Shown here in pieces: positions 33,577 through 64,000 of a stretch of 64,000 nt of DNA. Under the pieces are notes generated by a model, which did not search any database, was not told where the DNA came from, and saw nothing but the letters and a program-made list of their open reading frames with translations. The position numbers and the translations under genes are program-made. Numbering within the stretch: position 1 is the stretch's first letter; each line of letters opens with the position of its first letter. Origin of the DNA: Calothrix sp. FI2-JRJ7 (GTDB lineage: Bacteria; Cyanobacteriota; Cyanobacteriia; Cyanobacteriales; Nostocaceae); contig JAHHGX010000015.1 in assembly GCA_019359675.1 (NCBI GenBank), forward strand, positions 1-64,000. Direction: 5' to 3'.

Positions 33577-33626
33577 ATAGGCGTCCCGCCTGTCCTACAT
33601 ATAGACGGACAGGCGAGGACGCCTAT
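33577..33626. terminator. Long hairpin between convergent genes
   Basis: Arms at 33577-33595 and 33607-33626 pair over about 18 bases with one bulge (ATAGGCGTCC against GGACGCCTAT) around 11 bases. The right arm overlaps the stop of the amine oxidase gene; the STAND gene ends 31 bases to the left. It can serve as a terminator for both strands, although no T run is evident. GC-rich arms of this kind also occur as dispersed repeats. Confidence 0.6.
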
Positions 33627-34978
33627 GCTACAACTTCGGCTGATAGCGCATTCAAAACTTCCTCACTAGCTCGTTCCCCAGATTGAAGCGCTCCTTCCAT
33701 AAAGCTGCGCCACTCTGTCGCCGTTTCGGCGCCCGCAAAGTGAATACCGTTAAAGGGAGACGTTAGGGTATGTTCCGGCTCGCTCCAGCCACCGATAGCT
33801 CTGCGCGAAGCATAGCCCCCTTGAGACCATTTTTCAGATGTCCAATCGATTGAAACGATGTCTGTGAGTTGTCCAGATGCCTTACCTAAGACATTCTCTA
33901 CGTAAGATAACACTGCCTTATAACGAGTTTCGTCGTCCATCAAACTCAACTCCACCGCGCGCTGTCCGCTACTAAAAGCAGCCAGAATGCCTGGTTTTCC
34001 ATCAAAGTCTGAACTATCTACTAGAGTACTAATGAGTTCTGTGGGGGTGCTAGCAACGCCGCTTAAACCTTTATCTCGCCACCAAGCATGGTCATAAACA
34101 ATCAGAGTTTTGGTAACTTGCCCCAGTATCCTATCTTTTGGCTTGTTCACGGGTCGGTTAGTCAAACTATCGTCAAATGAAATCGACTCAATCAGTTGAG
34201 GTGGTAAGGCTAGGATCACCCGTTTTCCTAAAAATTCACCTCTAGCTGTTATTACCTGAACAAATTGACCGTGGCGCCTGAGAGCTTGTACTGGTGTGTT
34301 TGTGTGGATACAGTCGCCAAGTTCTGAAGCCATGCATTGTGCTAGGTTTTGGGCGCCGTCGGCAAAGAATTCATGCCCCGACTTCTCAAGTCCTTCCAAA
34401 CCACCCATTGTAGCAAGCTGCTGCAACCACTCCAAAGGAGAAAAGCGGTCAGCACTGGCACACAAGTCTTCTTCAGCTACATGAAGCCAAAATGCTCGTG
34501 CTTCTTTGGAGGATGCGTTTTGCTGTAGCCATTCGCGAAACGATTGCTTATCGAGCTGTTTGGCACGTTGATGCTGGCACGGGTCTACAACAGCAATTTG
34601 CTTAATCAATCGGTCTAACTGCCAGCCTAATTTGAGAGTATCGAGCTTCCCAGGAACTGACATTGGTGGCACTGTATCAGTTGTTCGCTGATATTTTCCA
34701 TCCGCTAAAAATATGTTATCCCCTTGAGTGTGGGAAACAATCGTCTTCAGTCCGTACTCCTTAGCCAGGGCATATACGCGCGTTTGTCCCGGTCCAATCC
34801 ACTGCCCACCTAAATCGATTGTTGTTCCATTGGATAGTCGTTGACTCAATACCCGTCCACCAATGCGGTCGCGAGCTTCGAGAACCGCAACCGTTAGTCC
34901 TGCTCGTCGCAGTATTCTCGCCGCATAAAGTCCAGAAAGACCGGCGCCAACTATTAAAACATCTGCATGTGTAGTCAT
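33623..34978 (-). CDS. Flavin-containing amine oxidase (MAO-like)
   Basis: 451 residues. The N terminus is an FAD-binding Rossmann motif (VLIVGAGLSGLYAARIL with EARDRIGGRV), then GGQWIGPGQTRVY. The C terminus has GIHFAGAETATEW and FMEGALQSGERA, the second flavin contact of monoamine/polyamine oxidases. Such enzymes oxidise amines to imines or aldehydes. The gene is the last of the minus-strand biosynthetic run, 68 bases after the ACP-like gene, and a stem-loop follows it. In context it may oxidise an amine of the long-chain product or act in its turnover. Cytoplasmic; no signal peptide. The family call is firm and the substrate is inferred. Confidence 0.88.
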   Translation of the reverse strand: MTTHADVLIVGAGLSGLYAARILRRAGLTVAVLEARDRIGGRVLSQRLSNGTTIDLGGQWIGPGQTRVYALAKEYGLKTIVSHTQGDNIFLADGKYQRTTDTVPPMSVPGKLDTLKLGWQLDRLIKQIAVVDPCQHQRAKQLDKQSFREWLQQNASSKEARAFWLHVAEEDLCASADRFSPLEWLQQLATMGGLEGLEKSGHEFFADGAQNLAQCMASELGDCIHTNTPVQALRRHGQFVQVITARGEFLGKRVILALPPQLIESISFDDSLTNRPVNKPKDRILGQVTKTLIVYDHAWWRDKGLSGVASTPTELISTLVDSSDFDGKPGILAAFSSGQRAVELSLMDDETRYKAVLSYVENVLGKASGQLTDIVSIDWTSEKWSQGGYASRRAIGGWSEPEHTLTSPFNGIHFAGAETATEWRSFMEGALQSGERASEEVLNALSAEVVA

Positions 34979-35007
34979 AGATTTCCTCTAATATATTTAA
35001 AACTTAG

Positions 35008-35077
35008 GCAAAGAAACCGGGTTTCTACGCGAAATGGTCGTTTTGATTACAATATTTCAATAAATAAACCCGGTTTA
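35008..35077. repeat. Dispersed palindromic element, copy A
   Basis: AGAAACCGGGTTTCT-type sequence at one end and AAACCCGGTTT at the other bound a 70-bp imperfect palindrome. A related copy in the other orientation is at 57413-57483; both share the inner ATTACAATATTTCAA word. The left part lies between two genes and the right part supplies the final codons and stop of the ACP-like gene. Confidence 0.75.
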
Positions 35078-35562
35078 TGGCTAATGTAATCAATGATTTG
35101 TTGTACTGTAAAAAGTGTTTTAGCACTGTGAGATGGAATTTCAATCTTGAAGGTTGACTCTAGTGCTATAGCTAATTTTATCGCATCTAAATAGCCTAGT
35201 TCTAAGTCATTAAGAACATGAGCTTCAGGAATTACTCGCTCCGACTTAATTCCAAATTCTTTTACAAAAATTGCTCGTATTTTTTCGAGGATTTTCTTGT
35301 TTTTTGATTTTTCATACTGAATTGTTATCTCAATTTCTTCTGTTAGTGTAGATATCTCCTTTAATACCGTTAAAATATTTTGATAGTGCTGAATATCCTC
35401 CTTTTCTAAAGGCCAACCACCATGCGATTGAAGCCAGTATTTACATATTTGATAACTATCCCTAAAGTTTCCAACTTCCGCTAGTCCGTGTGAGCGCGCA
35501 TTTTTACTTTGCCCATTACCTGTTAATGATTTACTAATGTTTTGTGAAAAATGCTTAGACAT
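35047..35562 (-). CDS. Acyl-carrier-protein-like protein without the attachment serine
   Basis: 171 residues from the ATG at 35562, seven bases after the exporter gene. The first 80 residues are an unrecognised helical domain (YQICKYWLQSHGGWPLEKED). Residues about 90-163 follow the ACP pattern: IRAIFVKEFGIK, then DLELGYLDAIKLAIALE, FKIEIP and TVQQIIDYI. In working ACPs the centre reads D-S-L, with Ser carrying phosphopantetheine; here it is Gly123-Tyr124-Leu125. The protein therefore cannot be loaded in the usual way and may be a docking or regulatory partner. Its last residues (PGLFIEIL) and stop come from the palindromic repeat. The same frame extends upstream inside the exporter gene, so the start is chosen by spacing. 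Confidence 0.65.
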   Translation of the reverse strand: MSKHFSQNISKSLTGNGQSKNARSHGLAEVGNFRDSYQICKYWLQSHGGWPLEKEDIQHYQNILTVLKEISTLTEEIEITIQYEKSKNKKILEKIRAIFVKEFGIKSERVIPEAHVLNDLELGYLDAIKLAIALESTFKIEIPSHSAKTLFTVQQIIDYISHKPGLFIEIL

Positions 35563-35569
35563 AATAATA

Positions 35570-37345
35570 TTAGGATTGCTTCTTATATATTTCCTTTTGT
35601 TTCCACCAAAGCTGCGAATACAAACCTTGAAGATAAAGTAACTGTGTATGATTCCCTTGCTCAATAATTCTTCCTCCTTTAAGTACAAAGATACAGTTTG
35701 AATCCATAATAGAAGCAAGTCTGTGGGTGACAGAGATAACAGTACGTCCTTTTGCTAGCTTTCTTAAAGTGGCATTGATGGCGAATTCTGTTTCTGCATC
35801 TAGCGAGGAAGTTGCTTCATCAAGTATAAGTATTGCAGGATTCCGCAAAATTGCACGTGCTATAGCAATTCGCTGTCGCTGACCACCTGAGAGTTTCCCT
35901 CCCCTTTCGCCAACTATAGTGTCATATTTCTGAGGAAAAGTTAGGATACTTTCATGTATTTCCGCAGCTTTAGCAGCTGCTTCGATTTCGGCATCAGTTG
36001 CATCGAGCTTACCCAAGCAAATGTTTTCGCGAATTGTTGTGTTGAAAAGGAACGTTTCTTGAAAAACAACGCCAATTTGTGACCGTAGGGATGCTTGAGT
36101 AACTTGTCGGATATCGTGACCGTCAATTATTACTGAACCCTCGTTAGGGTCGTAAAAGCGCATAAGTAAGTTGAGGAGTGTACTTTTGCCAGAACCACTA
36201 AGACCAACAAAAGCCACAGACTGACCAGCTTGAATTTTAAAGCTTATTTTGTTTACGTTGGGTTGCGTTCCTGAATAGCTAAAGCTTACATTATTAAACC
36301 GAATCCCTTGTGCTAGCGGTGGTAGTGTTATTGCTTCGGCTGTATCTGTAATTGTAGCTTGCTTTGACAACAGTTCTTTAATTCGTATCAACCCACTTGT
36401 TGCCTTTACTAGAGATGGAAATTGTTGAGTTAAGCCATCAATAGCAACATTCATGTTGAATAAAAGGCTAATAAACCCTACTAGCGACCCCGCAGTTAGG
36501 GCGCCACGAATAGCTAAGAAGGCGCCTACAGCAATAATTAATATTTGCAGAAAGTAGATGCTTAAGAGTGAGAGCCTACCTATTAAAAGGTTGAAGAAGT
36601 TACTGTTTTTGCTGCTAAGTGATAGGACAGCCGCTTGCTCTTGGAATTTGAATATCTCTGACTTTTGCAATCCAAAACTCCGAATCATCGCTTGAGCACT
36701 AATATTTTCTTGGATTTTACTTAAGACATTTGCCTCCTCTTGTCTTAGTTTATAACTACTTTTACTAACTTTTGACCCGAATACATTAGGTCCTATTAAG
36801 ACTATGGGTGACGCTATCACTGTCACCAAAGCCAGTCGCCATTCTACAGCGAAGAGTAGCAAAGTACTAGCTATCCCCAAAAAAATGTTGTAAATGCTCT
36901 TTGGAAAATCGATTGTAACCACTCTTTCGACATCATTCAAATTGCTAGAAAAGCGAGACATAAGTTCGCCCACTGTTATACCAGCATAAAAACTTAAACA
37001 GAGGTGCTGCAAATGCTTAAACATTGCTATGCTTATATCTTTAATAACACCTGCTCCAATCAGGGTACTGAAATAATCCTGAATAAGGCTTGCTAGGGAA
37101 AAAATGATATAGGCAACAACCAATACACTTAGTAAAATTAAGAGTAAGTTAGAATCACGAGTACTGATAACACGGTCAAATATCAACTGGTAAATAAAGG
37201 GAAGAAGTAACTCAAAGGCTAGTTGAAATATTAAACTCAGAACGAGCAAAATTACTTTAGACCAGTATTTATAAAGAAAACTGAAGAAAAATGGCAAGAG
37301 GTTTTTCCGGTCAGGTGGCGAAATAAAAGTCACTTTCCACCTCAT
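35570..37345 (-). CDS. ABC exporter, permease fused to ATPase (MsbA/LmrA type)
   Basis: 591 residues, a half-transporter expected to act as a homodimer. Six membrane helices lie in residues about 25-320 (from KVILLVLSLIFQLAFELLLP). The ATPase has Walker A GLSGSGKST near 395, Q-loop VVFQETFLF, signature LSGGQRQR near 490 and Walker B ILILDEATSSLD. No peptidase domain is present, so it is not a peptide-leader exporter. It overlaps the glycosyltransferase gene by 35 bases, which ties it to the biosynthetic run. A role in exporting the finished glycosylated product, or flipping a lipid-linked form, is inferred from position. Confidence 0.9.
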   Translation of the reverse strand: MRWKVTFISPPDRKNLLPFFFSFLYKYWSKVILLVLSLIFQLAFELLLPFIYQLIFDRVISTRDSNLLLILLSVLVVAYIIFSLASLIQDYFSTLIGAGVIKDISIAMFKHLQHLCLSFYAGITVGELMSRFSSNLNDVERVVTIDFPKSIYNIFLGIASTLLLFAVEWRLALVTVIASPIVLIGPNVFGSKVSKSSYKLRQEEANVLSKIQENISAQAMIRSFGLQKSEIFKFQEQAAVLSLSSKNSNFFNLLIGRLSLLSIYFLQILIIAVGAFLAIRGALTAGSLVGFISLLFNMNVAIDGLTQQFPSLVKATSGLIRIKELLSKQATITDTAEAITLPPLAQGIRFNNVSFSYSGTQPNVNKISFKIQAGQSVAFVGLSGSGKSTLLNLLMRFYDPNEGSVIIDGHDIRQVTQASLRSQIGVVFQETFLFNTTIRENICLGKLDATDAEIEAAAKAAEIHESILTFPQKYDTIVGERGGKLSGGQRQRIAIARAILRNPAILILDEATSSLDAETEFAINATLRKLAKGRTVISVTHRLASIMDSNCIFVLKGGRIIEQGNHTQLLYLQGLYSQLWWKQKEIYKKQS

Positions 37346-38612
37346 CTATTTTAAGTTGTTTTTCAATTGCATCACAGGCATTTTGTATTCCATTTTCCGA
37401 CTGAATGCAGTTTTGCACTTTTAATATCTTGGCTTTATATTTAGGTTGAGTTAGCAATTTTTTTAGCTCAACCACCGCCTGCTCGGCACGATACGTTTGT
37501 AACTTGAGCCTGCGTCCGATACCTAAGTTAACAATACGTTCTGCATTGTCTGGTTGTTCGTAACTGTGAGCAACCACTAACATAGGAACTCCGGACAGCA
37601 ATGCTTGCGATGTTGTGCCCATGCCGCCTTGATGCACAATCGCTGCCGCACGAGGAAAAAGTTCTGAATGCGGTGCATAATTAACGGCAATTATGTCTTT
37701 TGTTAATAGCTCCGATGGCAAATTTTCCGGCGCGTTACCAACTAGTAAAATGGCGCGATAGCCTAATTTTTTAGCAGCAATTACACTCTGTGTGTAAAAA
37801 TTAAGAGCTTCTTCAAAGTAAACAGTCGAAGAACCTAGTGTAAAAACAATGGGCGGAGGACCCGAATCTAAAAACTCTACTAGTGTTTGAGAGAGTTTTT
37901 GATTGGGGGTGAGGCGGTCAAAAAAGACGCAACCTGTTATTTGGATATTGGCAGGATAATTGTTTCGTAGCCTTGCCATCACAGGCGAATACATTGCTAG
38001 CATTAGTTGTGGTGAAGATAACTCTGGCAAAAACCTGTGGAGTTTGACAGGTGGAAGCCCGATTTCTGCCCGTAACTGCGAAATATGTTTGTGTAATAAC
38101 AGCACCGACGGCACGAAAGACAAGCAATACATTACTAACTTAATAAAAACATGATTTACCCAAGCAAATGGTGTCAACCCTAGCATATCGTCATCAACAT
38201 AATATGGGTCTAGGAAGCAAGATATCCACGGAATTTTTGTTTTCTGAGCTACGAGTGGGGCAACCACTACTGTGCAGTTCATTGATATCAATAAATCAGC
38301 TACCTCCGCTGCTTTAAGTAAATCCTCATATGTTTCTCGCTGACTGGAACACACTAAGTCCATTAACTCTTTATTTTTTATCCTTCCATTGAAAATTAGC
38401 TTTGTCCATTCAGCACCTAGCTCGGCAGGTAATTTAGGGCGCAAGGAATGAAAGTTAATACCAATTTCTTCTACTTTAGAACGGTAACCTTCGCTAGTCG
38501 CAATAACAACGTGATGTCCGCGAGTCTGTAATTCCTGCGCGAGCGCTATTGCTGGATATAAGTCACCAAGAGTACCGAAAGCTGTCAAAACAATTCGTTT
38601 GCTACTAACCAT
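37311..38612 (-). CDS. UGT/MGT-type glycosyltransferase (GT-B fold)
   Basis: About 433 residues from the ATG at 38612; a TTG at 38663 is in frame but adds a stretch unlike the family. The N-terminal domain opens RIVLTAFGTLGDLYPAIALA, typical of macrolide and sterol glycosyltransferases. The C-terminal donor domain has PPIVFTLGSSTVYF, VNYAPHSELFPRAAAIVHQGGMGTT and PMLVVAHSYEQPDNA, the sugar-nucleotide signature with the HQGG and E/DQ pair. It transfers a sugar from a UDP- or TDP-donor to a small-molecule hydroxyl or amine. It is tightly packed with the exporter gene, so glycosylation before or during export is plausible, perhaps as self-protection. Confidence 0.85.
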   Translation of the reverse strand: MVSSKRIVLTAFGTLGDLYPAIALAQELQTRGHHVVIATSEGYRSKVEEIGINFHSLRPKLPAELGAEWTKLIFNGRIKNKELMDLVCSSQRETYEDLLKAAEVADLLISMNCTVVVAPLVAQKTKIPWISCFLDPYYVDDDMLGLTPFAWVNHVFIKLVMYCLSFVPSVLLLHKHISQLRAEIGLPPVKLHRFLPELSSPQLMLAMYSPVMARLRNNYPANIQITGCVFFDRLTPNQKLSQTLVEFLDSGPPPIVFTLGSSTVYFEEALNFYTQSVIAAKKLGYRAILLVGNAPENLPSELLTKDIIAVNYAPHSELFPRAAAIVHQGGMGTTSQALLSGVPMLVVAHSYEQPDNAERIVNLGIGRRLKLQTYRAEQAVVELKKLLTQPKYKAKILKVQNCIQSENGIQNACDAIEKQLKIDEVESDFYFAT

Positions 38613-38694
38613 ATAGATAATTGTACTGAGAATTCTGAAGGAGGGTTCATACTTTATCTTCAATTAAAACAGCTGAAAACAAATTTGCAAGGGA

Positions 38695-39855
38695 TTAAAA
38701 ATAAGATTGCAAGGTTCCACGGCGCCTAACATCTAAAGTTGCACAATGAAAGGCGCCTCCAAAGGGATTAAAGTGTAAAAAATCACATGGTATTGGCTTA
38801 AATCCCCAATCTTTTAAGGCTCGAATTGTTGGCTCCTGATTTCTTTCACATATAACCCGCTCTTCATCGAGTGCTAAAACATTCATACTTAACCACATGC
38901 TACACAAAGCAGCAGTTTCACTAAAAAAACCTCTATCGACGATGACGGGTTCAGGTGCAATCAAAATATCCCAAGATTTTAAAATTGATGGCAACCTATT
39001 AACATCAACGTATTTTGGATTAATCATGACTTTTCCAGGTGCAAGAGGTACAAATGTAGTATCGATATGCATAGGTTGCTTAGAATGCGTCTCAATAATA
39101 TGAATGCGATATGAGTCACCCAAATGATTTTGTAACCAATTTATACCAGCCTGATTGGTGACATTACTTTTTGTTACAAAAATATCTCGACCGCAACGCG
39201 CGAAATCTGCTGCATCAAAAACAACCTCAGATTCGTTAATTACATATCGCATCTCTTCCCCAGCTTTTGGGACTGTATAATTTGTATCATACAGAGAATC
39301 TAGTAAAGGTGGTTTTGGGGCAGAAGTCCATTTTGCTCCTTGTTCAGAATACTCTTTAAACAAGTGATAATAGGCGTGAGTTTCAAAATAACGGGTTCTC
39401 CATGACATCGGCGCCTCAATAATTTCATTGCCTACTACTAAAAAACAATCTCTAGGACAAGCTGAACAAAAGCCTTTAGATGACCAATTTGGAGTAGAAA
39501 ATTTGCGACTAAAATCAGTTATGCTAGGGCGCCTAACTTTAACACCTTCTGCTTCAAGAATATGAATAAATTCATCCAATTCTTTTTGCGCTGGCATAAT
39601 ACCCACTTTTTTGTTAACTCTAGTTCCACCAACAAGGAACAGATAATCATAAAACTTTTGGGGAATTCCTCCTAGTAAATATTTATGTCGAGGGGGATGC
39701 ATAGAATTCTCTAGTCTCCCAACAACAACTTCTTCAAGTGGGTCCCATTCATTGTATGAGTTTACAACACAACCCATCGAAGGAGTATTATGGCTTTTAA
39801 TCTCATTGAGACTTTTCACAGAAGCATCTTTTATTTCTAATTTGTTGATTGTCAT
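38695..39855 (-). CDS. Amidinotransferase 1 (glycine amidinotransferase family)
   Basis: 386 residues. Enzymes of this family move the amidino group of arginine to an amine, giving a guanidine and ornithine. The catalytic Cys371 is in FHCATLDVRRRG; the His lies in HIDTTFVPLAPGKVMIN and the acidic partner in FDAADFARCGRDIF. All match the arginine:glycine amidinotransferase fold, which also includes cyanobacterial toxin enzymes such as CyrA and SxtG. It differs clearly from its paralogue at 50833 in the N-terminal part, so the two probably take different acceptors or positions. It stands between the KS-CLF-DH-DH gene and the glycosyltransferase. The acceptor is unknown; an amine of the megasynthase product is the likely choice. 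Confidence 0.92.
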   Translation of the reverse strand: MTINKLEIKDASVKSLNEIKSHNTPSMGCVVNSYNEWDPLEEVVVGRLENSMHPPRHKYLLGGIPQKFYDYLFLVGGTRVNKKVGIMPAQKELDEFIHILEAEGVKVRRPSITDFSRKFSTPNWSSKGFCSACPRDCFLVVGNEIIEAPMSWRTRYFETHAYYHLFKEYSEQGAKWTSAPKPPLLDSLYDTNYTVPKAGEEMRYVINESEVVFDAADFARCGRDIFVTKSNVTNQAGINWLQNHLGDSYRIHIIETHSKQPMHIDTTFVPLAPGKVMINPKYVDVNRLPSILKSWDILIAPEPVIVDRGFFSETAALCSMWLSMNVLALDEERVICERNQEPTIRALKDWGFKPIPCDFLHFNPFGGAFHCATLDVRRRGTLQSYF

Positions 39856-39888
39856 AGTTTTTGAGTCTCCTATATTTTTCTTTGTTGT

Positions 39889-42800: not shown

Positions 42801-44046
42801 TATGTTTTTGGATAATATTTGCAGAACCTATTATCTTATGCTGAGATTCGCTCGCATTTTTTATACCAATGCTAGCTGGAATAACCCCTTCTTTCATCGC
42901 CCATATAACCTTGATTATGCTAGCCATGCCCGAAACTGTTAGCATGTGACCGATGTGAGCTTTATTGGCGCCTAGCATCGGTATTTTAGCTTTGTCTGCA
43001 AAGAATTTTTCTAGGGAATCCAATTCCGTCTGGTCTCCTAGAGGGGTTCCAGTAGCGTGGCACTCTATATAATCTGCTGGTGACGACTGCCCGTAAGCCC
43101 TTTCTAAAGCCAAATATTGTCCTTTACTAGATGGGCTGAGAATGTGTTTTCCTCCACCATCATTGGATAAACCAATGTTTTCGATAACAGCATATATATG
43201 GTCGCCAGCTTTTTCGGCGTCAGTCAAGCGTTTAAGAACAAAAAGACTTGCTCCTTCTCCCATTTTGATGCCTTCGGATGATTTATCAAAAGGAAGACAG
43301 TTTCCCTGACCTGGGAAAGCATGAAGCACATTAAACCCATGAGTTATAAAAAGACGTTCAGGTGAACATACGGCGCCAGCAAGCATCATATCAACCTGAC
43401 CAGTTTTTAGGTAATAAGAAGCTAGTTCCATAACATATAATGAACTGGCGCAAGCAGCATCAATTGTGTAAGTAATTCCACCCAGCCCTAAACCATTACA
43501 AATTATATTAGCTGGTAAGCCAGCAGTCATAGCGTTATCGAGAGAAATATCGGGTAACGACGCGCGACCCTCAAACGAGAAATTTTGATTATTTAGAAGT
43601 TCTTTAACAAAGTACTCCAAAGCTTCTAGGTGTATCGACGAGAACAGCTTGCTCGAAGACTCTGTTGGAAAAGAAAGATTACCTAATATTAGTCCTGTCT
43701 TTTTTAAAACTTCTTCAGAATTGAAATAACCACTATCTTTAAGAGCTTCCTTTGCAGCATAAAGCGACCAGTGAAATATTTTATCTAAAGTCATTAGCTT
43801 TTCGGGGGAGATTTTATAGCCATTAGCGTCAAAATCAAAATCCCGAATGTAACCGTTTTTGGTATAGCTAATTTTGTCTGGTGTTCCCAACTGAGGATTG
43901 TGGTAAATTGAAGGGTCTGTGCCGATATCTTCTACAGTCATTTCGTGGGTAAAATCCATACCAGCCATTAAGTTTTTCCAAAATTCATCAGGCTTTTTCG
44001 CACCTGGAAATAAGCAACCTATTCCAACAATAGCAATTTTATCCAT
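39889..44046 (-). CDS. PUFA-synthase-type subunit: KS, chain-length factor, two dehydratase domains (PfaC-like)
   Basis: 1385 residues in four parts. An active ketosynthase (1-455) has Cys199 in DAACASS, HATGT and NKAHIGH. A second KS-fold (about 470-870) has FSVSSQENSVY, with Gln657 where Cys would be, the mark of a chain-length factor. Then come two FabA-like hotdog domains: TPLPPFMFVSRV near 1010 and FKNDPVLPGTMLVEGCNQ near 1270. This is the order of PfaC in polyunsaturated fatty acid synthases and of the polyamine synthases of zeamine/fabclavine type. It would elongate and dehydrate the ACP-bound chain iteratively. Its 5' end overlaps the KR-DH gene by 8 bases. Confidence 0.9.
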   Translation of the reverse strand: MDKIAIVGIGCLFPGAKKPDEFWKNLMAGMDFTHEMTVEDIGTDPSIYHNPQLGTPDKISYTKNGYIRDFDFDANGYKISPEKLMTLDKIFHWSLYAAKEALKDSGYFNSEEVLKKTGLILGNLSFPTESSSKLFSSIHLEALEYFVKELLNNQNFSFEGRASLPDISLDNAMTAGLPANIICNGLGLGGITYTIDAACASSLYVMELASYYLKTGQVDMMLAGAVCSPERLFITHGFNVLHAFPGQGNCLPFDKSSEGIKMGEGASLFVLKRLTDAEKAGDHIYAVIENIGLSNDGGGKHILSPSSKGQYLALERAYGQSSPADYIECHATGTPLGDQTELDSLEKFFADKAKIPMLGANKAHIGHMLTVSGMASIIKVIWAMKEGVIPASIGIKNASESQHKIIGSANIIQKHTPWPQNELKRAGINAFGFGGTNAHLILTEYIPQTIKPTPNVPSQTKESTLAIVGMHIHIGSVEGLDAFAQVLSDGRDVTTSLPAERWVGAEESLKEPAPKAAYLEKFDFNCAAFKFPPSEIKLSVFDHLFMMKVADAALRDAGFTHEEHFRKTAVIIACEMNLMTHRTVTRLNIPWYLQQTFEKFNIQLTDDQASKLESILKESISPDFYVEGITGGIGNLAASRISALQNFTGPAFSVSSQENSVYKAIAVARFLLELGHVDAVVVGSIDQAGVWEHVQWRQKVGKHNSDLTFGEGAGAIVLCRKETAQKNKNRIYATIESLAIVQGHEVEASGVCQAAKGALADAKITPKEVAYLEVSQNGIAAQDSNEIAGLSQVYSLEQTQIGSVKTNVGNSFVLSAMASIIKSSLCLYHHFFPGVPIQPNELWESLDRKHKRCIAVNGMSNDSSIAHLILSSAHHWELKQSNRTTEPKTNKSKAVVKTLLNGMPRMRDIILSEDNIKQFSQVSLPLVTQMVTQIPPRLLNNKQFMIENQLTANAKLQHLFLQIQDEFYQQLNRNLTNDTLLTPTLTTVTNIEPKSIVWNLEQITEMVEGKISNVLGDYYEPMDDYPIRSRTPLPPFMFVSRVTKMTAQRGKLEPCTIEWEYDIPSDSFYAAHNVLTSLIPFEASHVMLLALAYTGCDMMFEGKLRYRAIDSQVICFNELPPPGETLRGEVSITNMVNTKKNLLLQYEYNCYYKDKHLMRITANSGYFSEADLNNSKGVPTFTVPKGKTIVKEHFSPRLTCNKTQFSDADIQALQKGDFSHCFGNAYLTKKPLPLGSDKLLMLNRILQLDSQGGLWGLGQIIGEVDIDPDHWTFKAHFKNDPVLPGTMLVEGCNQVLAFYMYYLGLHTKFENFKFAFCYGLKSTAKLRGQVNQSTNKVQFRITVKEINDANDPYIVAVAEIIVNQKVIGILDDLGVRFTSFNPSSL

Positions 44047-46339: not shown

Positions 46340-46494
46340 TTGATTGGATAAGTTGGCAGGGAAGTTAAGGATTACTACTTTTTGACCCTGCCCGTACAGT
46401 TTTTGAGCTAAAGCGCTTGCTATTCCATCTCCCGCTTCCGCGATTAGCCAGACGTGACCCTCAGCTAACCGCAGTTCCCGTAAATCGGGTTTAC

Positions 46495-46512
46495 TCAGGA
46501 ATTTTTTTTTAC
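46495..46512 (-). other. A9 slippery run linking ACP and KR-DH reading frames
   Basis: On the minus strand the ACP frame reads GTA AAA AAA AAT TCC TGA. A -1 shift, or one extra A in the transcript, gives GTA AAA AAA AAA TTC CTG and runs on into the KR-DH frame. The run is nine A's (46510-46502), long enough for RNA-polymerase slippage as well as ribosomal -1 slippage. A genuine one-base deletion or read error would look the same. Confidence 0.65.
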
Positions 46513-50830: not shown

Positions 50831-50832
50831 CA

Positions 50833-53223: not shown

Positions 53224-54006
53224 TTAACTCCACTGTGAGGTTTCTAGCGTACCTATATTTAGACCTCCATCCAATGCAACAACCGCCCCGTTGAGGTAGT
53301 TAGTTTTACAAGCAGCGAGAAACGTAACTATTTCAGCAACATCTGACGGATGTCCAAAACGACCAGAAGGAATAAGGTTTAACAATAGTTTGTCTGCAGT
53401 AACAGTACTATGTTTATCTTCATTTTCAAGCATTTCGGTTTGGAAGATACCAGGGGTTATTGCATTAACGCATACACCAAAAGAACCCAGTTCTCTTGCC
53501 CAAGATTTAGAAGCAGCTATCAAACCTGCTTTAGAAGCAGCGTAAGCAGAAGCAGAAGCCGCTCCCCAAGTTCCGGCAATAGAGGCAATATTAATTACAC
53601 GTCCATTTCTCTTTTTGACCATAAACTTAGAGAAAATTGTGGTACAACTATATGCCCCTATTAAATTTACATCAATCACTTTAGCGACTGTATCTTGATA
53701 CTCTGGCAGTAAAACAGGAGTACGCTCAAAAATTCCTGCATTGTTTACTAGAACAGCAATAGAGTCTCCGAAATAACTAGTTATTTGCTCGGCTGCTTGT
53801 TGGATGCTGTAGGTGCTACATACATCCATTACAAATAAGCCTAGTTTTTCAGAATTTTTTACATAACTTTGTAATGAGTCAAGTTTATTTTGGGAAACAT
53901 CTGTTGCAGCAACACAAAACCCTTCTGCTAACAGATGTTGAACTATTTGGCGCCCAAATCCTCCAGCAGCCCCTGTTACGACTGCAATTTTCTGATGATT
54001 CTGCAT
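53224..54006 (-). CDS. Short-chain dehydrogenase/reductase (FabG-like)
   Basis: 260 residues of the classical SDR type: VVTGAAGGFGRQIV at the N terminus, NNAG near 92, a catalytic Ser in INIASIAG, YAASKAG with the Tyr/Lys pair near 159, and the usual C-terminal glycine-rich DGGLNIG. It might reduce a beta-keto group outside the synthase or make an alcohol for glycosylation. It lies 22 bases after the aminotransferase gene and 24 before the thioester-reductase-like gene. A housekeeping fatty acid role is less likely in this context. Confidence 0.85.
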   Translation of the reverse strand: MQNHQKIAVVTGAAGGFGRQIVQHLLAEGFCVAATDVSQNKLDSLQSYVKNSEKLGLFVMDVCSTYSIQQAAEQITSYFGDSIAVLVNNAGIFERTPVLLPEYQDTVAKVIDVNLIGAYSCTTIFSKFMVKKRNGRVINIASIAGTWGAASASAYAASKAGLIAASKSWARELGSFGVCVNAITPGIFQTEMLENEDKHSTVTADKLLLNLIPSGRFGHPSDVAEIVTFLAACKTNYLNGAVVALDGGLNIGTLETSQWS

Positions 54007-54028
54007 TGAGTTTGCCTACTTTATAAGT

Positions 54029-55354: not shown

Positions 55355-55365
55355 TGCAAATTCTC

Positions 55366-57552: not shown

Positions 57553-58731
57553 ATGAATTTAAAATCACTCTCTAAATCTTCTAGCCAATGGCTACTTGGG
57601 TTATTTATTGCTGTAACTGCTGTTACAGGTGCAATTGTTTTAATTGGGATGGAGGAGTTTAGGCTGGAGAGTAAAAATTCTTCTCAGCCTGTAAAAACAG
57701 TTCCTGTAGTAAAAGAAGTAACAGCTTTAGGAAGACTACAACCGCAAAAAGAGGTTATTCGTTTGTCGTCGCCTCTCGCTTTGAATGAAGACCGTGTGGC
57801 TCAACTACTGGTAAAAGAAGGTGACAGCGTACAGAAAGGGCAAGTTGTTGCAATATTAGACTCTCGTAATCGCCTCCAGTCTGCTGTTTTAGAAGCGCAG
57901 AACCGAGTTAAAGAAGCCAAGGTGAGGTTAGCACAGGTGAAAGCCGGAGCTAAAAAAGGCGAAATACAAGCGCAGCAGGCAATTATTAATCGGTTGCAGG
58001 CGGAGAGAAACGGAAACATTGCAATCCAAAAGGCGAATATTACCCGTTTGCAATCAGAAGTACGTAATGCCCGTAGTGAGTATAAACGCAACCTTTGGTT
58101 GCATCAGCAGGGTGCTATTTCCGCCTCAGCCCTAGATAGTAAGAGGTTGGCAGCAGAAACAGCAGCAGCACAGATGGAGCAAGCTATTGCCCAACAAAAA
58201 AGTACAGCAAAGTCTCTTACTGCCCAAGAAAAAGAAGCTATAGCTACACTAAATCGCATTGTTGAAATTCGTCCTGTTGAGGTGGAGACAGCCCAAACTC
58301 AAGTGGGCACTGCAATTGCCCAGTTACAGCGTGCCAAAATCGAACTAGAGCAAGCTTATATAAAAGCACCAATGGCGAGTCAGATTTTCAAAATTTACGC
58401 CAAAACTGGAGAAAAACTTGGAGACAATGGCATTGCTGACCTGGGGCAAACTGACAGCATGATGGTAGTAGCAGAAATATATCAAACCGACATAGACAAA
58501 GTTCGTATAGGACAGTCAGTAACTATTACCAGTTCAGTCTTTCCCGGTAAATTACAGGGAAAAGTCGATTTAGTTGGTTTACGGCTAAGTCGGCAAAATG
58601 TCTTTAGCAATCAACCAGGAGAAAACCTAGACCGTCGAGTAGTGGAGGTTAAAATTAACTTGACTAAAGAAGCAAGTCGCCAAGTGGCTTCGTTGACGGA
58701 TTTACAAGTGGAGGTAGCAATTCAAATATAA
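57553..58731 (+). CDS. DevB-type membrane fusion protein (HlyD family)
   Basis: 392 residues. One N-terminal membrane helix (WLLGLFIAVTAVTGAIVLIG) anchors a periplasmic adaptor. The lipoyl half-motifs (LLVKEGDSVQKGQVVAILDS and AQLQRAKIELEQAYIKAP) flank a long coiled coil at about 110-255. The C-terminal beta-barrel contains GQSVTITSSVFPGKLQGKV. DevB proteins link an inner-membrane DevCA transporter to TolC; in heterocysts DevBCA exports glycolipid. Here the pair stands at the head of the divergent plus-strand genes, 58 bases before DevC. It probably helps move the cluster product, or a glycolipid, across the envelope. Confidence 0.88.
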   Translation: MNLKSLSKSSSQWLLGLFIAVTAVTGAIVLIGMEEFRLESKNSSQPVKTVPVVKEVTALGRLQPQKEVIRLSSPLALNEDRVAQLLVKEGDSVQKGQVVAILDSRNRLQSAVLEAQNRVKEAKVRLAQVKAGAKKGEIQAQQAIINRLQAERNGNIAIQKANITRLQSEVRNARSEYKRNLWLHQQGAISASALDSKRLAAETAAAQMEQAIAQQKSTAKSLTAQEKEAIATLNRIVEIRPVEVETAQTQVGTAIAQLQRAKIELEQAYIKAPMASQIFKIYAKTGEKLGDNGIADLGQTDSMMVVAEIYQTDIDKVRIGQSVTITSSVFPGKLQGKVDLVGLRLSRQNVFSNQPGENLDRRVVEVKINLTKEASRQVASLTDLQVEVAIQI

Positions 58732-58789
58732 TGATACATTTTCGCAAATACTCCTACTGATTCAAATTTATTCGTTTAAAGGCTAATTT

Positions 58790-59956
58790 ATGGTTTTCAA
58801 ATTATTAAGTAAAAAAACTCCACTTGCTTGGCGCCAGTTGATGAAAAATAAAACCCGACTAGCAGTTGCTGTGGCGGGGATTGCTTTTGCTGATATGCTG
58901 ATGTTTTTGCAAATGGGGTTGTTAGATTCATTGTTTGATAGTGCGACACAACCTCACCGAAATCTTGAGGGTGATTTGGTTATGGTAGATTCTTTTTATC
59001 AAAGCATAACCACACTCAACAGCTTTAGAAGAGATAGGTTGCAGAAAGCTTTAGGATATGAAGGAGTCAGTTCTATTAGCCCACTGCGCGTGGACTCTGG
59101 CTCATGGCGTAATCCCGAAACACTTAAAAGTAGAAACATTTTAATATTTGGAATCGATCTAGATAAACCAGCATTTAATTTTCCCTCAGTCCACCAAAAC
59201 TTAGGTCGGCTCAAGTTACTAAATCGAGTGCTATTTGACAAAGCTTCACGACCGGAATACGGTCGAATTCCTGAACTCTTACAGCAGCATGGAACTGTAG
59301 AAGCACAGTTGAAGGATCAAGTTATACAAACAGTGGGTTTATTTAATCTAGGTGTATCCTTTGGTGCTGACGGTAACGTCATCACTAGTGATTCAACTTT
59401 CCTCAAACTATTTCCAGGAAGTCGGTCGTATCAAATTTCAGTTGGTTTAATTCATCTTAAACCTAATGCTGATGTCACTAAGGTGCAATCACTTCTAAAT
59501 GAAACCTTACCAAAAGATGTGAAAGTATTGACCCCTCAAGAATTTATCGACATCGAAATCGACTATTGGGCAAGTCAGGGGACTGGGTTTATTTTTATGC
59601 TGGGTGTAGTAGTGGGGTTTATTGTCGGTATTGTAATTGTTTACCAAATTTTGTACGCCGATGTCTCTGAACATTTACCGGAGTACGCTACTTTGAAAGC
59701 AATGGGATACAGCGATCGGTATTTACTCGGCGTTTTACTACAAGAAGCATTATTATTAGCTGTATTAGGGTTTCTGCCTGGTTTTTTGCTTTCGATAGGG
59801 TTGTACCAAATTACCTTTGCTGCAACCCTGTTACCAGTCACAATGAAGACTGGTCGGGCGATTGTTGTATTACTGCTTACAATATTTATGTGCAGTATTT
59901 CTGGAGCGATTGCAATGCAAAAATTGCGTTCAGCTGACCCGGCTGATGTTTTCTAG
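58790..59956 (+). CDS. DevC-type ABC transporter permease
   Basis: 388 residues. The start LAWRQLMKNKTRLAVAVAGIAFADMLMFLQMG is characteristic of DevC permeases; a large periplasmic loop (about 50-255) and three C-terminal helices (GFIFMLGVVVGFIVGIVIV, LLLAVLGFLPGFLLSIGL, AIVVLLLTIFMC) follow. It ends in ADPADVF. It would form the channel of a MacB-like exporter with DevB. The ATPase partner (DevA) is not encoded next to it; a glycosyltransferase follows, so the ATPase must come from elsewhere if the system works. Confidence 0.88.
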   Translation: MVFKLLSKKTPLAWRQLMKNKTRLAVAVAGIAFADMLMFLQMGLLDSLFDSATQPHRNLEGDLVMVDSFYQSITTLNSFRRDRLQKALGYEGVSSISPLRVDSGSWRNPETLKSRNILIFGIDLDKPAFNFPSVHQNLGRLKLLNRVLFDKASRPEYGRIPELLQQHGTVEAQLKDQVIQTVGLFNLGVSFGADGNVITSDSTFLKLFPGSRSYQISVGLIHLKPNADVTKVQSLLNETLPKDVKVLTPQEFIDIEIDYWASQGTGFIFMLGVVVGFIVGIVIVYQILYADVSEHLPEYATLKAMGYSDRYLLGVLLQEALLLAVLGFLPGFLLSIGLYQITFAATLLPVTMKTGRAIVVLLLTIFMCSISGAIAMQKLRSADPADVF

Positions 59957-60057
59957 TTATTATCGATAAGTTGACATATTCAACAAATCCGTAAAATTTA
60001 CGAATTTGAACTGCTCTACAACTACCGTAATTAAAGCTTTTAAAGGTTGAGAAAACT

Positions 60058-61509
60058 ATGATTGCAATAGCCTACTTGTGTTTGGTTACCTATTTCATTT
60101 TATTGGTAATTAGCGCCTTATCCTCTTGGCTGCTAGTTCCAACAGTGATGACTCATCGAAAACATCTGGTACAGCAGAAGCCACAGGCGCCGCTCGTTAT
60201 ACACCCGACAGTAACAATTCAACTTCCCATCTTTAACGAATATTATGTTTCTACCCGCCTACTCGATGCCCTGAAATTATTGAACTATCCAAAAGATTGC
60301 TTCGACATTCAAATTCTTGATGACTCGACGGATGAAACCAGCGATTTGTTGGCAGTAAAAACAATAGAACTGAAGCAAGAGGGGTTTTCTGTTTCGCATA
60401 TTCGACGTTCTATGCGAGAGGGATTTAAAAGCGGCGCGCTACAGCATGGAATGCAGATTTCAAATAGTGACTTTTTTGCAATTTTCGATGCTGACTTCGT
60501 GCCCGATCCTGACTTTCTGGTGAAGGTAATGCCTTATTTTCAAAATGAGCAAGTTGCAATCGTCCAAACCAAGCTACACTTTGCCAATTGGGACACTTCC
60601 TTCCTGACCCGAATTCAGCAAATGCAAACAAGCCTTGAATTTGAAATCGATATTCATCGACGGACAAGCCAGGGAGGCTTTTTGCACTTTAGTGGTACTG
60701 GTGGAGTATTACGTGGTTCGTCAATTCAACAGGCAGGGGGTTGGCAGGGCGATACGTTGTCAGAAGATTTAGACCTTAGTACTAGGCTTTACCTGAAGGG
60801 GTGGCAGGCAGTTTACGCCCCAGAGGTGATTTCTACAGGAGAATTCCCAATAGACCTAGTTAGCCTCTGTGTACAACAGTTCCGTTGGGCAAAGGGAACG
60901 ACAGAAGTATTTCGGAAGCTAGGAGACCAAGTCCTCAACTCAGCACTATCACCAAATACCAAAGACGATTGGATATCACTCTGTGTGTCCTACTCAATGT
61001 TTCCCGTCTTTTTTGCTACCGGAATTCTAAGTATAACGGTCACTTCGCTCAATAATTATCTTCCGTCTTTCCTCCTTTATGGATCATCATGGCTGTACCT
61101 GCTTTGGATTGTCCCTATGTTGATAACCTATGCCTATGCAATTAGCCTGGGCAAAGAGAAACATAACTGGTGGAAATATTGGGGTGACTCTGTGTTTTTT
61201 TTGTTTTATAACCTGGCTGTTTCCTGGCAAAATTCTATTGCAGTTTTCCAGGGAGGATTAGGTTGCCGAAGTGAGTTTAAACGTACCCCTAAGCTAGCAA
61301 ACACTAAACCACAAGAACACAACAAATATCTTAATTTTCAGTGGGATGGAATGCTATTAAGTGAAGTTTTTCTAGGGGGAATATATGCTATGATGACAAT
61401 TATTGATAGTTTAGAAAAGCTACCATTCTTGTTCATACATATTCTTTTTGCTACTAGCTTCATTGGTAAAGTTGTCTATACTTTATCTTTTCGTTTGTTC
61501 AATTCTTAG
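60058..61509 (+). CDS. GT2 membrane glycosyltransferase, copy 1
   Basis: 483 residues. An N-terminal membrane helix (FILLVISALSSWLLV) precedes a GT-A domain with VTIQLPIFNE, ILDDSTDETSD, Asp144-Ala-Asp146 in FDADFVPD, Glu236-Asp237 in SEDLDLS and the processive-type QQFRW (Trp277). Three or four C-terminal helices follow. The arrangement is that of cellulose-synthase-like and glucomannan-type GT2 enzymes, which transfer one or several sugars across the membrane. It may glycosylate a lipid-like product. A near copy is at 62724. It starts 101 bases after the DevC gene. Confidence 0.88.
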   Translation: MIAIAYLCLVTYFILLVISALSSWLLVPTVMTHRKHLVQQKPQAPLVIHPTVTIQLPIFNEYYVSTRLLDALKLLNYPKDCFDIQILDDSTDETSDLLAVKTIELKQEGFSVSHIRRSMREGFKSGALQHGMQISNSDFFAIFDADFVPDPDFLVKVMPYFQNEQVAIVQTKLHFANWDTSFLTRIQQMQTSLEFEIDIHRRTSQGGFLHFSGTGGVLRGSSIQQAGGWQGDTLSEDLDLSTRLYLKGWQAVYAPEVISTGEFPIDLVSLCVQQFRWAKGTTEVFRKLGDQVLNSALSPNTKDDWISLCVSYSMFPVFFATGILSITVTSLNNYLPSFLLYGSSWLYLLWIVPMLITYAYAISLGKEKHNWWKYWGDSVFFLFYNLAVSWQNSIAVFQGGLGCRSEFKRTPKLANTKPQEHNKYLNFQWDGMLLSEVFLGGIYAMMTIIDSLEKLPFLFIHILFATSFIGKVVYTLSFRLFNS

Positions 61510-61550
61510 TAATTTAAGAATCAAGATTTTTGACTTTTAGGAGGTTTTTT

Positions 61551-62624
61551 ATGTTGCAATTGACAAGTTTACAACCTACCCTTAACAGATGGCAAGCTCG
61601 GTTGTTTTTCTTCTTACAAGAACGGTTTGGCGTAACCCTCTTTATGAGGTTTCAGGAAGACAACGAAGTATCGCAAAAGAAATTTATCGACAGTTATGAA
61701 GACATTTTTTACCATATAATGAACGTAGATATGTGTCGCATGAACGCATATACTGACGTGGCTACAAACCGCACATTGTGTGGAGATAAAACTTTTGTAG
61801 ATATTGGCACAGGAATGTACTTGACACTCACTAAGTTGCTGTTAAAAGGAGGCGTTGCCCATGTACATGCCATTGAGGCAAACAAAGAATCTTACAAAAA
61901 AGCACTAGAAGAGTGCAAATGTATGGAGCGGGTCGCTCAAGACAAAATTACGCTTCATCAAAGTCTTTCTACAGAAATTACTTTTAATCAAAGGGTAGAT
62001 GGCATTATACACGAGATTGTGGGTAGAATTGCTTCAAACGAAGGAATGCCATATGTGATTGCAGATGCACAAGAAAGGTTTTTGGTTCCTAATGGTTTGG
62101 TGATTCCAAAACTTGTTGAAACACTTATGGTACCGATTGAAGAACCTTCTATAGGTTTTGTTGGACGACTTATGTCTTGGTTTGGCTTTGAAAGCAAGCC
62201 AGAACTTAAACAAGGTCTTCAGGTTATTTACAATCCAACTAAGCAGATTCGGCTCTCTAATGTTGCTGAAGTTGTAGAGTCTTTTGTTTGTGGCCCTTCG
62301 GCGCCTCCTATGCGCGAGCAACTCGTTCAGACCAAGCGCATCAGCTTCTCAATAGATCGCACTGGCAACTTCTGCGGATTTCTTCTTGGTTGTCGTGTTG
62401 TAACCCATGAAAATTCCCCTGTAATTAATGCACTTGACCAGATTACTAGCTGGGGTACAGTATTTGTACGAATTCTGGAAACACCACGCACTCTTTCTAA
62501 GGGTACAAAGATTGATGTTGACTTCCATGTTGATGCATCCACTATTACCCCAAACTATTTCATCGCAGTTTCATTGGAAGATAGCAAACTTGCGGAAGTG
62601 AAGTGGAGTGGTCCACTAAACTGA
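61551..62624 (+). CDS. PRMT-like SAM methyltransferase
   Basis: 357 residues from the ATG at 61551, which has a strong GGAGG seven bases upstream. The SAM-binding motif I is FVDIGTG at about 82-88, followed by HVHAIEAN (motif II acidic residue). Glu155 and Glu164 lie in a segment HEIVGRIASNEG. Their spacing of nine equals that of the double-E loop with which protein arginine methyltransferases hold a guanidinium. The C-terminal half is a beta-rich barrel, also PRMT-like. Sitting between two GT2 copies and close to two amidinotransferases, it may methylate a guanidino small molecule and not a protein. The PRMT assignment is by motif; the substrate is inference. Confidence 0.75.
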   Translation: MLQLTSLQPTLNRWQARLFFFLQERFGVTLFMRFQEDNEVSQKKFIDSYEDIFYHIMNVDMCRMNAYTDVATNRTLCGDKTFVDIGTGMYLTLTKLLLKGGVAHVHAIEANKESYKKALEECKCMERVAQDKITLHQSLSTEITFNQRVDGIIHEIVGRIASNEGMPYVIADAQERFLVPNGLVIPKLVETLMVPIEEPSIGFVGRLMSWFGFESKPELKQGLQVIYNPTKQIRLSNVAEVVESFVCGPSAPPMREQLVQTKRISFSIDRTGNFCGFLLGCRVVTHENSPVINALDQITSWGTVFVRILETPRTLSKGTKIDVDFHVDASTITPNYFIAVSLEDSKLAEVKWSGPLN

Positions 62625-62652
62625 CTTTTTACTTTCTGAAAAAAAGATTTTT

Positions 62653-62693
62653 GTCGGTTGGGTTCTTCGCCACGGAGTGTCTTTACAACCGAC
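62653..62693. repeat. Hairpin between methyltransferase and second GT2 gene
   Basis: GTCGGTTG (62653-62660) pairs with CAACCGAC (62686-62693) around 25 bases, starting 29 bases after the methyltransferase stop. No T run follows, so termination would be weak. It resembles the dispersed GGTTGGGTTCTTC-type palindromes of cyanobacteria. Confidence 0.5.
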
Positions 62694-62723
62694 AATCGTA
62701 TTGATAACAGTTTGAGGAAAATA

Positions 62724-64000
62724 ATGAACACAATCGCCTACTTATGTTTGGGAACTTATCTCATTTTATTGGTAATTAGCGCCTTATCCTCTTGGCTGCT
62801 AGTTCCAACAGTAATAACTCATCGAAAACATTCGGAACAGCAGAAGCCACAGGCGCCGCTTGTGAAATTCCCAAAAGTAACAATTCAACTTCCCATCTTT
62901 AACGAATATTATGTTTCTGCCCGCCTGCTCAATGCCCTCAAATTATTGAACTATCCAAAAGATTGCTTCGACATTCAAATTCTTGATGACTCGACGGATG
63001 AAACCAGCGATTTGTTGGCAGTGAAAACAATAGAACTGAAGCAAGAGGGGTTTTCTGTTTCCCATATTCGACGTTCTATGCGAGAGGGATTTAAAAGCGG
63101 TGCGCTACAGCATGGAATGCAGATTTCAAATAGTGACTTTTTTGCAATTTTCGATGCTGACTTCATGCCCGATCCTGACTTTCTAGTGAAGGTGATGCCT
63201 TATTTTCAAAATGAGCAAGTTGCAATCGTCCAAACCAAGCTACACTTTGCCAATTGGGACACTTCCTTCCTGACCCGAATTCAGCAGATGCAAACAAGCC
63301 TTGAATTTGAAATCGATATTCCTCGACGGGCAGGTTTGGGAAGCTTTTTACAATTTAATGGTACTGGCGGGGTGTTGCGTCGTTCGTCAATTCAACAGGC
63401 AGGGGGTTGGCAGGGCGATACATTGGCAGAAGATTTAGACCTCACTACCAGGCTTTACCTGAAGGGGTGGCAGGTAGTTTATGCCCCAGAGGTGATTTCT
63501 ACAGGGGAATTTCCAATAGATGTAATTAGCCTCTGTTCACAACAGTTCCGTTGGGTAAAGGGAACGACGGAAGTATTTCGGAAGCTAGGAGACCAAGTTT
63601 TCAACTCAGCACTACCACCAAATACCAAAGACGATTGGGTATCGCTATGTTTGTTCTACAACTCAATGTTCCCCATCTTTTTTGCTACGGGAATCCTAAG
63701 TATAACGGTCACTTTGCTTAATAATTATCTTCCGCCTTCCCTCGTTTATTGGTCATCATGGCTGTACCTGTTTTGGATTGTCCCCATGTTAATAACCTAT
63801 ACCTATGCAATTAACCTGGGCAAAGAGAAACATAACTGGTGGAAAAATTGCGGTGACTTTCTGTTTTTTTTGTTCTATACCCTAGCTTTTTCCTGGCAGA
63901 ACTCTATTGCAGTTTTCCAGGGAGGATTAGGTTGGCGAAGTGAGTTTAAACGCACCCCTAAGCTAGCCAACACTAAACCACAGGAACGCAAAAAATATCT
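62724..64000 (+). CDS. GT2 membrane glycosyltransferase, copy 2 (runs off the window)
   Basis: The ATG at 62724, with GAGG upstream, opens 425 codons to the right edge. The sequence is nearly identical to the gene at 60058 over long stretches: the same LVISALSSWLLV helix, ILDDSTDETSD, FDADFMPD, AEDLDLT and QQFRW. It differs at a patch with PRRAGLGSFLQF in place of HRRTSQGGFLHF, close to the acceptor site, and has one extra residue in LCLFYNSMFP. All catalytic residues are kept. A recent duplication with divergence of the acceptor region is likely; the end of the protein is not seen. Confidence 0.88.
   Translation, partial: MNTIAYLCLGTYLILLVISALSSWLLVPTVITHRKHSEQQKPQAPLVKFPKVTIQLPIFNEYYVSARLLNALKLLNYPKDCFDIQILDDSTDETSDLLAVKTIELKQEGFSVSHIRRSMREGFKSGALQHGMQISNSDFFAIFDADFMPDPDFLVKVMPYFQNEQVAIVQTKLHFANWDTSFLTRIQQMQTSLEFEIDIPRRAGLGSFLQFNGTGGVLRRSSIQQAGGWQGDTLAEDLDLTTRLYLKGWQVVYAPEVISTGEFPIDVISLCSQQFRWVKGTTEVFRKLGDQVFNSALPPNTKDDWVSLCLFYNSMFPIFFATGILSITVTLLNNYLPPSLVYWSSWLYLFWIVPMLITYTYAINLGKEKHNWWKNCGDFLFFLFYTLAFSWQNSIAVFQGGLGWRSEFKRTPKLANTKPQERKKY

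Follow-up and report, generated by a model that had tools for sequence, protein, structure and literature searches.

A conserved cyanobacterial gene cluster that probably directs biosynthesis and export of a guanidinylated long-chain amine lipid

The first 64000 bases of contig JAHHGX010000015.1 of Calothrix sp. FI2-JRJ7 (hereafter the window; the contig has 72172 bases and the genome, G000, 8.66 Mb) contain a gene cluster in which a lipid synthase line resembling polyunsaturated fatty acid (PUFA) synthases is combined with an aminotransferase and two amidinotransferases. Fourteen minus-strand genes lie head to tail between 33623 and 56994 with short gaps or overlaps, and this spacing suggests that they form one operon and are read as one transcript. 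In the 5′ to 3′ direction they encode PfaD, a class III aminotransferase (AT3), a short-chain dehydrogenase/reductase (SDR), a thioester reductase (TR), the amidinotransferase AmtB, a ketosynthase-acyltransferase protein (KS-AT), an acyl carrier protein (ACP), a ketoreductase-dehydratase protein (KR-DH), PfaC, the amidinotransferase AmtA, a glycosyltransferase (UGT), an ATP-binding cassette (ABC) exporter, a small ACP-like protein (ACPb) and an amine oxidase. Beyond PfaD, DevB, DevC, a GT2 glycosyltransferase, an unknown gene and a further GT2 follow on the plus strand. Domains were called with Pfam and NCBIfam, and six proteins (five in the window, plus an amidase beyond it) were compared with PDB sequences. 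The original prediction, made from the letters of this DNA, had proposed a pathway to a guanidinylated, glycosylated long-chain amine; every enzyme that it named was found by Pfam/NCBIfam, with PDB matches for the proteins compared, though its gene list had overlooked ACPb (35047–35562).

The synthase line comprises the KS-AT, ACP and KR, a PfaC with ketosynthase, chain-length factor and dehydratase regions (KS-CLF-DH) and PfaD, all with the corresponding Pfam domains, and KS-AT and PfaD score above the cut-offs of TIGR02813 and TIGR02814 respectively. Pattern searches and alignments showed the motifs of KS, AT, ACP, KR, SDR, TR and AT3 all to be intact. PfaC had been predicted to be KS-CLF-DH-DH; Pfam finds one FabA-like domain (residues 1236–1367), and residues ~992–1383 align as a single block to PfaC of other synthases, of which L202, L205 and L211 carry a second such block. 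Because of this single domain and one-block alignment the window PfaC is instead read as KS-CLF-DH, probably with one double-hotdog DH.

AmtA and AmtB align nearly full length to SxtG in PDB, followed by AGAT, HsvA and inosamine-phosphate amidinotransferase, and the Asp, His and Cys motifs that are catalytic in the AGAT/SxtG family were present in all six copies of AmtA and all six of AmtB from the window and its relatives. The match to SxtG, AGAT, HsvA and StrB is thus almost end to end and the catalytic motifs are alike, but the gene setting differs and two distinct lineages stand side by side. A tree of 40 proteins placed AmtA in a clade of its own (100/100), adjoining relatives encoded in frames of 367–388 aa, and AmtB in one group (99/97) with five cyanobacterial proteins (L012–L016/L048–L052; ~75% identity to AmtB) that are the C-terminal parts of frames of 1132–1168 aa. 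Two of these five were scanned and have AMP-binding and carrier domains ahead of the amidinotransferase part, i.e. an adenylation-peptidyl carrier protein (A-PCP)-amidinotransferase arrangement, with nonribosomal peptide synthetase (NRPS) genes downstream in the one locus scanned further. In these loading modules the amidinotransferase is fused behind the adenylation and carrier domains, whereas AmtB of the window is free-standing. Two amidinotransferase lineages have therefore been recruited, and AmtB is closely related to enzymes positioned to modify an amine held on a carrier; this kinship favours guanidinylation on the assembly line but does not prove it. Since two SxtG/AGAT-type enzymes with intact motifs lie among the core genes, guanidinylation is the natural reading.

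The same gene set was found in five genomes of another genus, g133 (G347, G1082, G1094, G1095 and G1096). When the best few AT3 candidates per genome were scored, 388 genomes of the order gave matches in the window's own genome, in G347 (80%) and in G106 (38%), the last with no synthase gene in the 20-kb stretch around it, and among 386 genomes of the phylum only the own genome matched. A genome scan with AT3, in which near records of the own genome were possibly left out, gave no synthase, TR, amidinotransferase, UGT or DevBC gene at E ≤ 1e-10 around its best 80 loci (32–41% identity). With the amidase as a blind marker, 99 genomes of the family gave matches in three, the own genome, G347 and the new G1082, and G1082 then proved to hold the whole core. 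AmtB was rejected as a route to further clusters: relatives at E ≤ 1e-60 occur in 32 of the 291 genomes of the order, counting the own one, and 17 neighbourhoods around them, representing 16 of the remaining 31 genomes, contained no match to KS-AT, PfaC, KR-DH, ACP, PfaD or TR, although two of them (L055 and L057) contained an aminotransferase at 32–33%.

AT3 was found in all five g133 genomes examined (matches in the relatives' fetched stretches were taken at E ≤ 1e-12). In each the genes run PfaD-AT3-SDR-SDR-TR-AmtB-KSAT-ACP-KRDH-PfaC-AmtA-ACPb, plus the amidase, and G347 has the core genes as in the window in identical order, so that an 11-gene core plus amidase, with the relative order of the core unchanged, is present in six clusters of two genera. 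The cluster of the window's genome differs in having one SDR where all five relatives have two, in carrying UGT and the ABC exporter between AmtA and ACPb, and in the placing of the amidase, which lies across PfaD from the rest. Identities to the window were highest for AT3 (79–80%), AmtA (77–82%), AmtB (78–80%), PfaD (75–76%) and the amidase (73–75%), followed by KS-AT (72–74%), TR (65–67%), PfaC (63–64%; 1420–1439 aa in the relatives), KR-DH (62–63%), ACPb (41–44%) and ACP (41–43%). Median pairwise NG86 ratios of nonsynonymous to synonymous substitution (dN/dS) within g133 ranged over 15 genes from 0.05 (AT3) to 0.28 (ACP), using 10 pairs per gene (three for UGT, six for the ABC exporter), and the cluster is under purifying constraint in that genus. 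Six syntenic copies mean that it is no chance assembly. Within the window's own genus, G379 lacked a match to AT3 and to the amidase and G1077 lacked one to the amidase, and since these two genomes lack a marker the cluster was likely transferred into the window's lineage; it is real and conserved, and probably shared horizontally.

In gene content the window comes near to the zeamine cluster (HE995400). As described in PMC3547906, this encodes Zmn10 (2259 aa), which is PfaA-like and bears only one ACP, Zmn11 (1439 aa), which combines two KS domains with one that is FabA-like, Zmn12, a PfaD plus aminotransferase (1010 aa), Zmn13, a 3-oxoacyl-ACP reductase (255 aa), and Zmn14, a thioester reductase (412 aa), and the aminotransferase is proposed there to replace reduction in chosen cycles and also to aminate the released aldehyde. 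The polyamine of fabclavine has three to five amine units, according to the part of PMC7214866 available. Likened by gene kinds and sizes to what these sources give for zmn10–14 and for fclC–E with their neighbours, the window has the same PfaA/PfaC/PfaD-like line with one synthase ACP, a glutamate-1-semialdehyde (GSA)-type aminotransferase, a stand-alone KR and a stand-alone TR, so that synthase, aminotransferase, KR and TR are all represented. The sizes correspond: KS-AT, ACP and KR-DH together ~2150–2200 aa against 2259 for Zmn10; PfaC 1385 aa (1420–1439 in relatives) against 1439 for Zmn11; PfaD 542 plus AT3 441 against 1010 for Zmn12; SDR 260 against 255 for Zmn13; and TR 407 against 412 for Zmn14. 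In contrast to zeamine and fabclavine the window genes are split rather than fused, and two amidinotransferases, UGT and the amidase are added. The gammaproteobacterial genomes sampled gave a PfaC-like match in 15 of 369, and 15 stretches from 13 of these 15 (all but G695 and G996) contained no match to AT3, TR or the amidinotransferases. At gene level there is good support for the proposal that amidinotransferases are joined here to a PUFA-synthase-like line of the zeamine, amine-making type, and the combination is conserved in six genomes.

We consider, with a probability of roughly 60%, that the cluster makes and exports a long-chain amine or polyamine lipid that bears guanidine and is often glycosylated; substrates, order of steps, numbers of amines and guanidines, product and activity are inferred from the genes. 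KS-AT, ACP, KR-DH, KS-CLF-DH and PfaD would extend a malonyl-derived chain in the manner of PUFA and heterocyst-glycolipid synthases. AT3, whose closest PDB sequences are GSA aminomutases and, farther off, the aminotransferase domain of mycosubtilin synthase A (1e-36), would add nitrogen at the beta-keto stages of chosen cycles, as proposed for Zmn12, to an aldehyde released by TR, or at both points, whilst TR would release the chain as aldehyde and SDR would create hydroxy positions or reduce a carbonyl. Arginine would supply the amidino groups that AmtB and AmtA place on two different amines, possibly on a carrier-bound amino-acyl chain in the case of AmtB and on a released amine in that of AmtA. 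UGT, where present, would glycosylate the chain, the MsbA-like and DevBCA-type transporters would export the product, and the amidase would remove or trim an amide.

Several observations weigh against this reading. A ketosynthase tree of 19 rows (six window-type, four cyanobacterial of a heterocyst-glycolipid-like, or hgl-like, kind and nine gammaproteobacterial; no zeamine row, and long branches flagged) joined the window-type clade in a 97/96 group with the four hgl-like rows and one of the nine gammaproteobacterial rows (L202), the other eight falling outside; by gene content the window is nearer to zeamine, by KS tree nearer to the hgl-like synthases. No zeamine-like partner combining NRPS and polyketide synthase (PKS) genes was seen among the core and flanking genes scanned, and the relatives' fetched stretches have no frame above 1010 aa except PfaC. 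A GSA-type AT3 suits a single amine at the chain end no less than multiple amines within the chain. AmtB came out as one group in 38% of bootstrap trees, leaving unsettled whether AmtB or the fusions came first, and since it is also free-standing here it need not have retained a carrier-bound substrate. UGT is not on the G347 contig, nor in the G1095 stretch, which stops at the contig end. The window copy has features of its own: the KR-DH dehydratase motif is without its usual Gly (DHVILNNAVLPA); homology of KR-DH extends to 46474, past the TTG listed as its start at 46339, and between this TTG and the upstream stop the frame contains no ATG, GTG or TTG; and the phosphopantetheine Ser of ACPb is lost (LGYLD), DSL being kept in all five relatives in the alignment of six. 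At the point at which KR-DH of the relatives begins, the frame of the window is open and homologous but lacks a usual start codon; a rare one may be used, and loss of the ACPb Ser may be a sign of relaxed need for this carrier. With the KR-DH Gly and a usual KR-DH start codon missing and the ACPb Ser lost, the window copy may be less sound than those of the relatives.

A different use of the same enzymes would place guanidinylation at the start of the chain, one amidinotransferase producing a small guanidino acid, in the manner of CyrA in the cylindrospermopsin pathway, or acting on a carrier-bound amino acid, so as to prime the synthase and yield an omega-guanidino chain, with the second acting on a terminal amine made by TR and AT3. 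The grouping of AmtB with A-PCP-amidinotransferase loading modules and the presence of a second ACP-like protein, ACPb, in all six clusters fit such a scheme, but no adenylation domain or CoA ligase occurs among the core and scanned flanking genes and ACPb of the window has lost its Ser, and we regard it as unlikely.

Distinctly unlikely, in our view, is a route like that of the heterocyst glycolipids, in which TR and SDR would yield a long-chain alcohol or diol for glycosylation by UGT and export by DevBCA, with only a decorating role left to the nitrogen genes, giving a mono-guanidino glycolipid. Besides the 97/96 KS group and the presence of UGT, the window shares PfaD and DevBC with the compared loci, here termed hgl-like, and a TR adjoins two of them. 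The six window-type KS nevertheless form a separate clade (100/100) outside the four hgl-like rows, and the four hgl-like loci have no aminotransferase or amidinotransferase match, whilst AT3 and both amidinotransferases are present in 6/6 clusters at 77–82% to the window, the top of the shared genes, against 4/6 for UGT. Contig C8 of the same genome (~24400–46000; L046 and L047) carries another cluster, apart from this one and hgl-like, with a KS-AT-ACP-ACP protein whose KS-AT has 50% identity to that of the window, KR-DH, PfaC, PfaD, thioester reductase and DevBC. PfaC/KS matches at E ≤ 1e-120 were found in 67 of 69 sampled genomes of other genera of the same family; these are presumably of the heterocyst-glycolipid (hgl) type, which suggests that the organism of the window forms heterocysts too. 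That the genes are unrelated neighbours, or a decaying copy that no longer works, as the window-only amine oxidase and GT2s, the degenerate ACPb and the lack of a usual KR-DH start codon could suggest, is very improbable given a core order kept in six of six clusters across two genera and dN/dS well below 1 within g133.

Relative to these alternatives, a guanidinylated long-chain amine or polyamine lipid stays our preferred product, and it would be akin to, yet different from, the zeamine antibiotics and heterocyst glycolipids. Among the papers listed in the literature searches none describes a PUFA-synthase-like line with amidinotransferases, in line with the original remark that no described product with exactly this set was known, although subscription papers and preprints were outside its coverage and a description elsewhere is possible. 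One listed paper, on desotamides, matches both amidinotransferase and thioester reductase, and another, PMC11837572, matches amidinotransferase and heterocyst glycolipid but mentions cyrA and hgl clusters apart. Hybrid PUFA-synthase clusters, cyanobacterial ones included, are charted in PMC13291983, a survey that required PKS and NRPS genes and whose main text has no word starting 'amidino' or 'guanidin'; as presented there, they too are secondary lipid synthases that have recruited tailoring enzymes, and Nostoc-type cyanobacteria carry some of them.

Table 1. Genes of the cluster and its flanks, with the evidence for each assignment (positions refer to the window unless marked contig). FAD: flavin adenine dinucleotide; PLP: pyridoxal phosphate; TMD-NBD: transmembrane and nucleotide-binding domains.
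Feature	Position	Strand	Evidence
FAD amine oxidase (putrescine/monoamine-oxidase-like)	33623..34978	-	Pfam Amino_oxidase 6e-71; top PDB matches monoamine and putrescine oxidases; last gene of run
ACPb, small ACP-like protein	35047..35562	-	Weak Pfam PP-binding; 6-copy alignment
MsbA-like ABC exporter (TMD-NBD)	35570..37345	-	Pfam; all NCBIfam matches under their cut-offs
UGT, UDPGT/GT28-type glycosyltransferase	37311..38663	-	Pfam
AmtA, SxtG/AGAT-type amidinotransferase	38695..39855	-	PDB SxtG 4e-137; FDAADF, MHIDTT, FHCATLD
PfaC-like KS-CLF-DH, 1385 aa	39889..44046	-	Pfam; KS Cys/His/His kept, CLF Gln replaces Cys
KR-DH (C-terminal half of PfaA type)	44039..46474	-	Pfam; TIGR02813 positions 1796-2564; listed ORF 5′ end 46339
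ACP protein, single PP-binding domain (LGIDSI)	46495..47688	-	Pfam; long N-terminal stretch without Pfam match
PfaA-like KS-AT	47738..50704	-	TIGR02813 1118 bits, cut-off 1010
AmtB, second SxtG/AGAT-type amidinotransferase	50833..51960	-	PDB SxtG 2e-167; FDAADF, LHIDTT, FHCATLD
TR, free-standing thioester reductase, 407 aa	51976..53199	-	TIGR01746 221 bits, cut-off 213; TGVTGVVG, YELTK; PDB match
SDR/FabG-like reductase, 260 aa (YAASK)	53224..54006	-	Pfam/NCBIfam
AT3, class III (GSA-type) PLP aminotransferase, 441 aa	54029..55354	-	Pfam Aminotran_3; PDB GSA aminomutase 3e-68
PfaD trans-enoyl reductase, 542 aa	55366..56994	-	TIGR02814 674 bits, cut-off 449; first gene of run
DevB-family membrane fusion protein, divergent	57553..58731	+	TIGR02971 above cut-off
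DevC permease	58790..59956	+	TIGR01185 above cut-off
GT2, 364-aa protein, GT2 (last runs beyond window)	60058..63998	+	Pfam; flank
ABC ATPase, beyond window	contig 65314-66000	opposite to DevBC	
Amidase, beyond window	contig 66550-67917		

The boundaries originally drawn for the cluster need revision. The amine oxidase, both GT2s, the gene between the latter (61530–62624, with no Pfam/NCBIfam match at E ≤ 0.001) and a GT8 gene have no match in the five relatives' fetched stretches; the amine oxidase and GT2s were rejected as core parts for this reason, and the GT2-unknown-GT2 flank is probably outside the core, whereas the amidase and ABC ATPase past the window end are shared with relatives. 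The proposed glycosylation is less well supported than the guanidinylation: a UGT gene close to that of the window occurs in four of the six clusters (67–68% in 3/5 relatives), and the GT2 genes were seen in the window only. The ABC exporter is present in five clusters (not G347; 66–67% in four relatives), as is the ABC ATPase (67–68% in four relatives; not in the G1095 stretch), which lies 5.4 kb on from DevB and DevC and is their possible partner. DevB of G347 and G1082 has 36–38% identity to that of the window. The motif patterns tried were found in none of six amidase copies and none of four UGT copies. In four of the five clusters of g133, DevB and DevC are separated by a gene for a fatty acid hydroxylase (Pfam, G347), and in four a gene of PMT_2 type and a further UGT lie after the amidase (relatives' loci L098, L222, L232, L236 and L224).

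Upstream in the window, 8073–33546 encodes CHAT, CHASE2, DUF1822 and DUF928 proteins, three large TPS-domain proteins and then an NB-ARC/zinc-ribbon protein (30544–33546), all seemingly unrelated to the cluster. A phage-type integrase (839–1924) and a ParA-like ATPase (~69843–70637 on contig C15) lie at opposite ends of the contig; the cluster could be part of a plasmid or island. A plasmid collection gave no match to AT3 or KS-AT at ≥60% identity. Exact NtcA-type boxes (GTAN8TAC) were found in none of the six clusters within 600 bases upstream of PfaD.

The presence of the cluster in all five g133 genomes suggests that it is a trait of that genus and not of an odd strain. Tentatively, it may represent a new natural-product class, a zeamine-like long-chain polyamine in which two dedicated amidinotransferases, one of them working on the carrier-bound chain, convert amines to guanidines, made throughout one cyanobacterial genus and passed to another. 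Six genomes are available to chemists for comparison, and the kinship of AmtB with carrier-linked amidinotransferases makes guanidinylation of a lipid chain on the line directly testable. If the proposal is true, secondary lipid synthases would extend to guanidino lipids, a strongly cationic and likely membrane-active chemistry.

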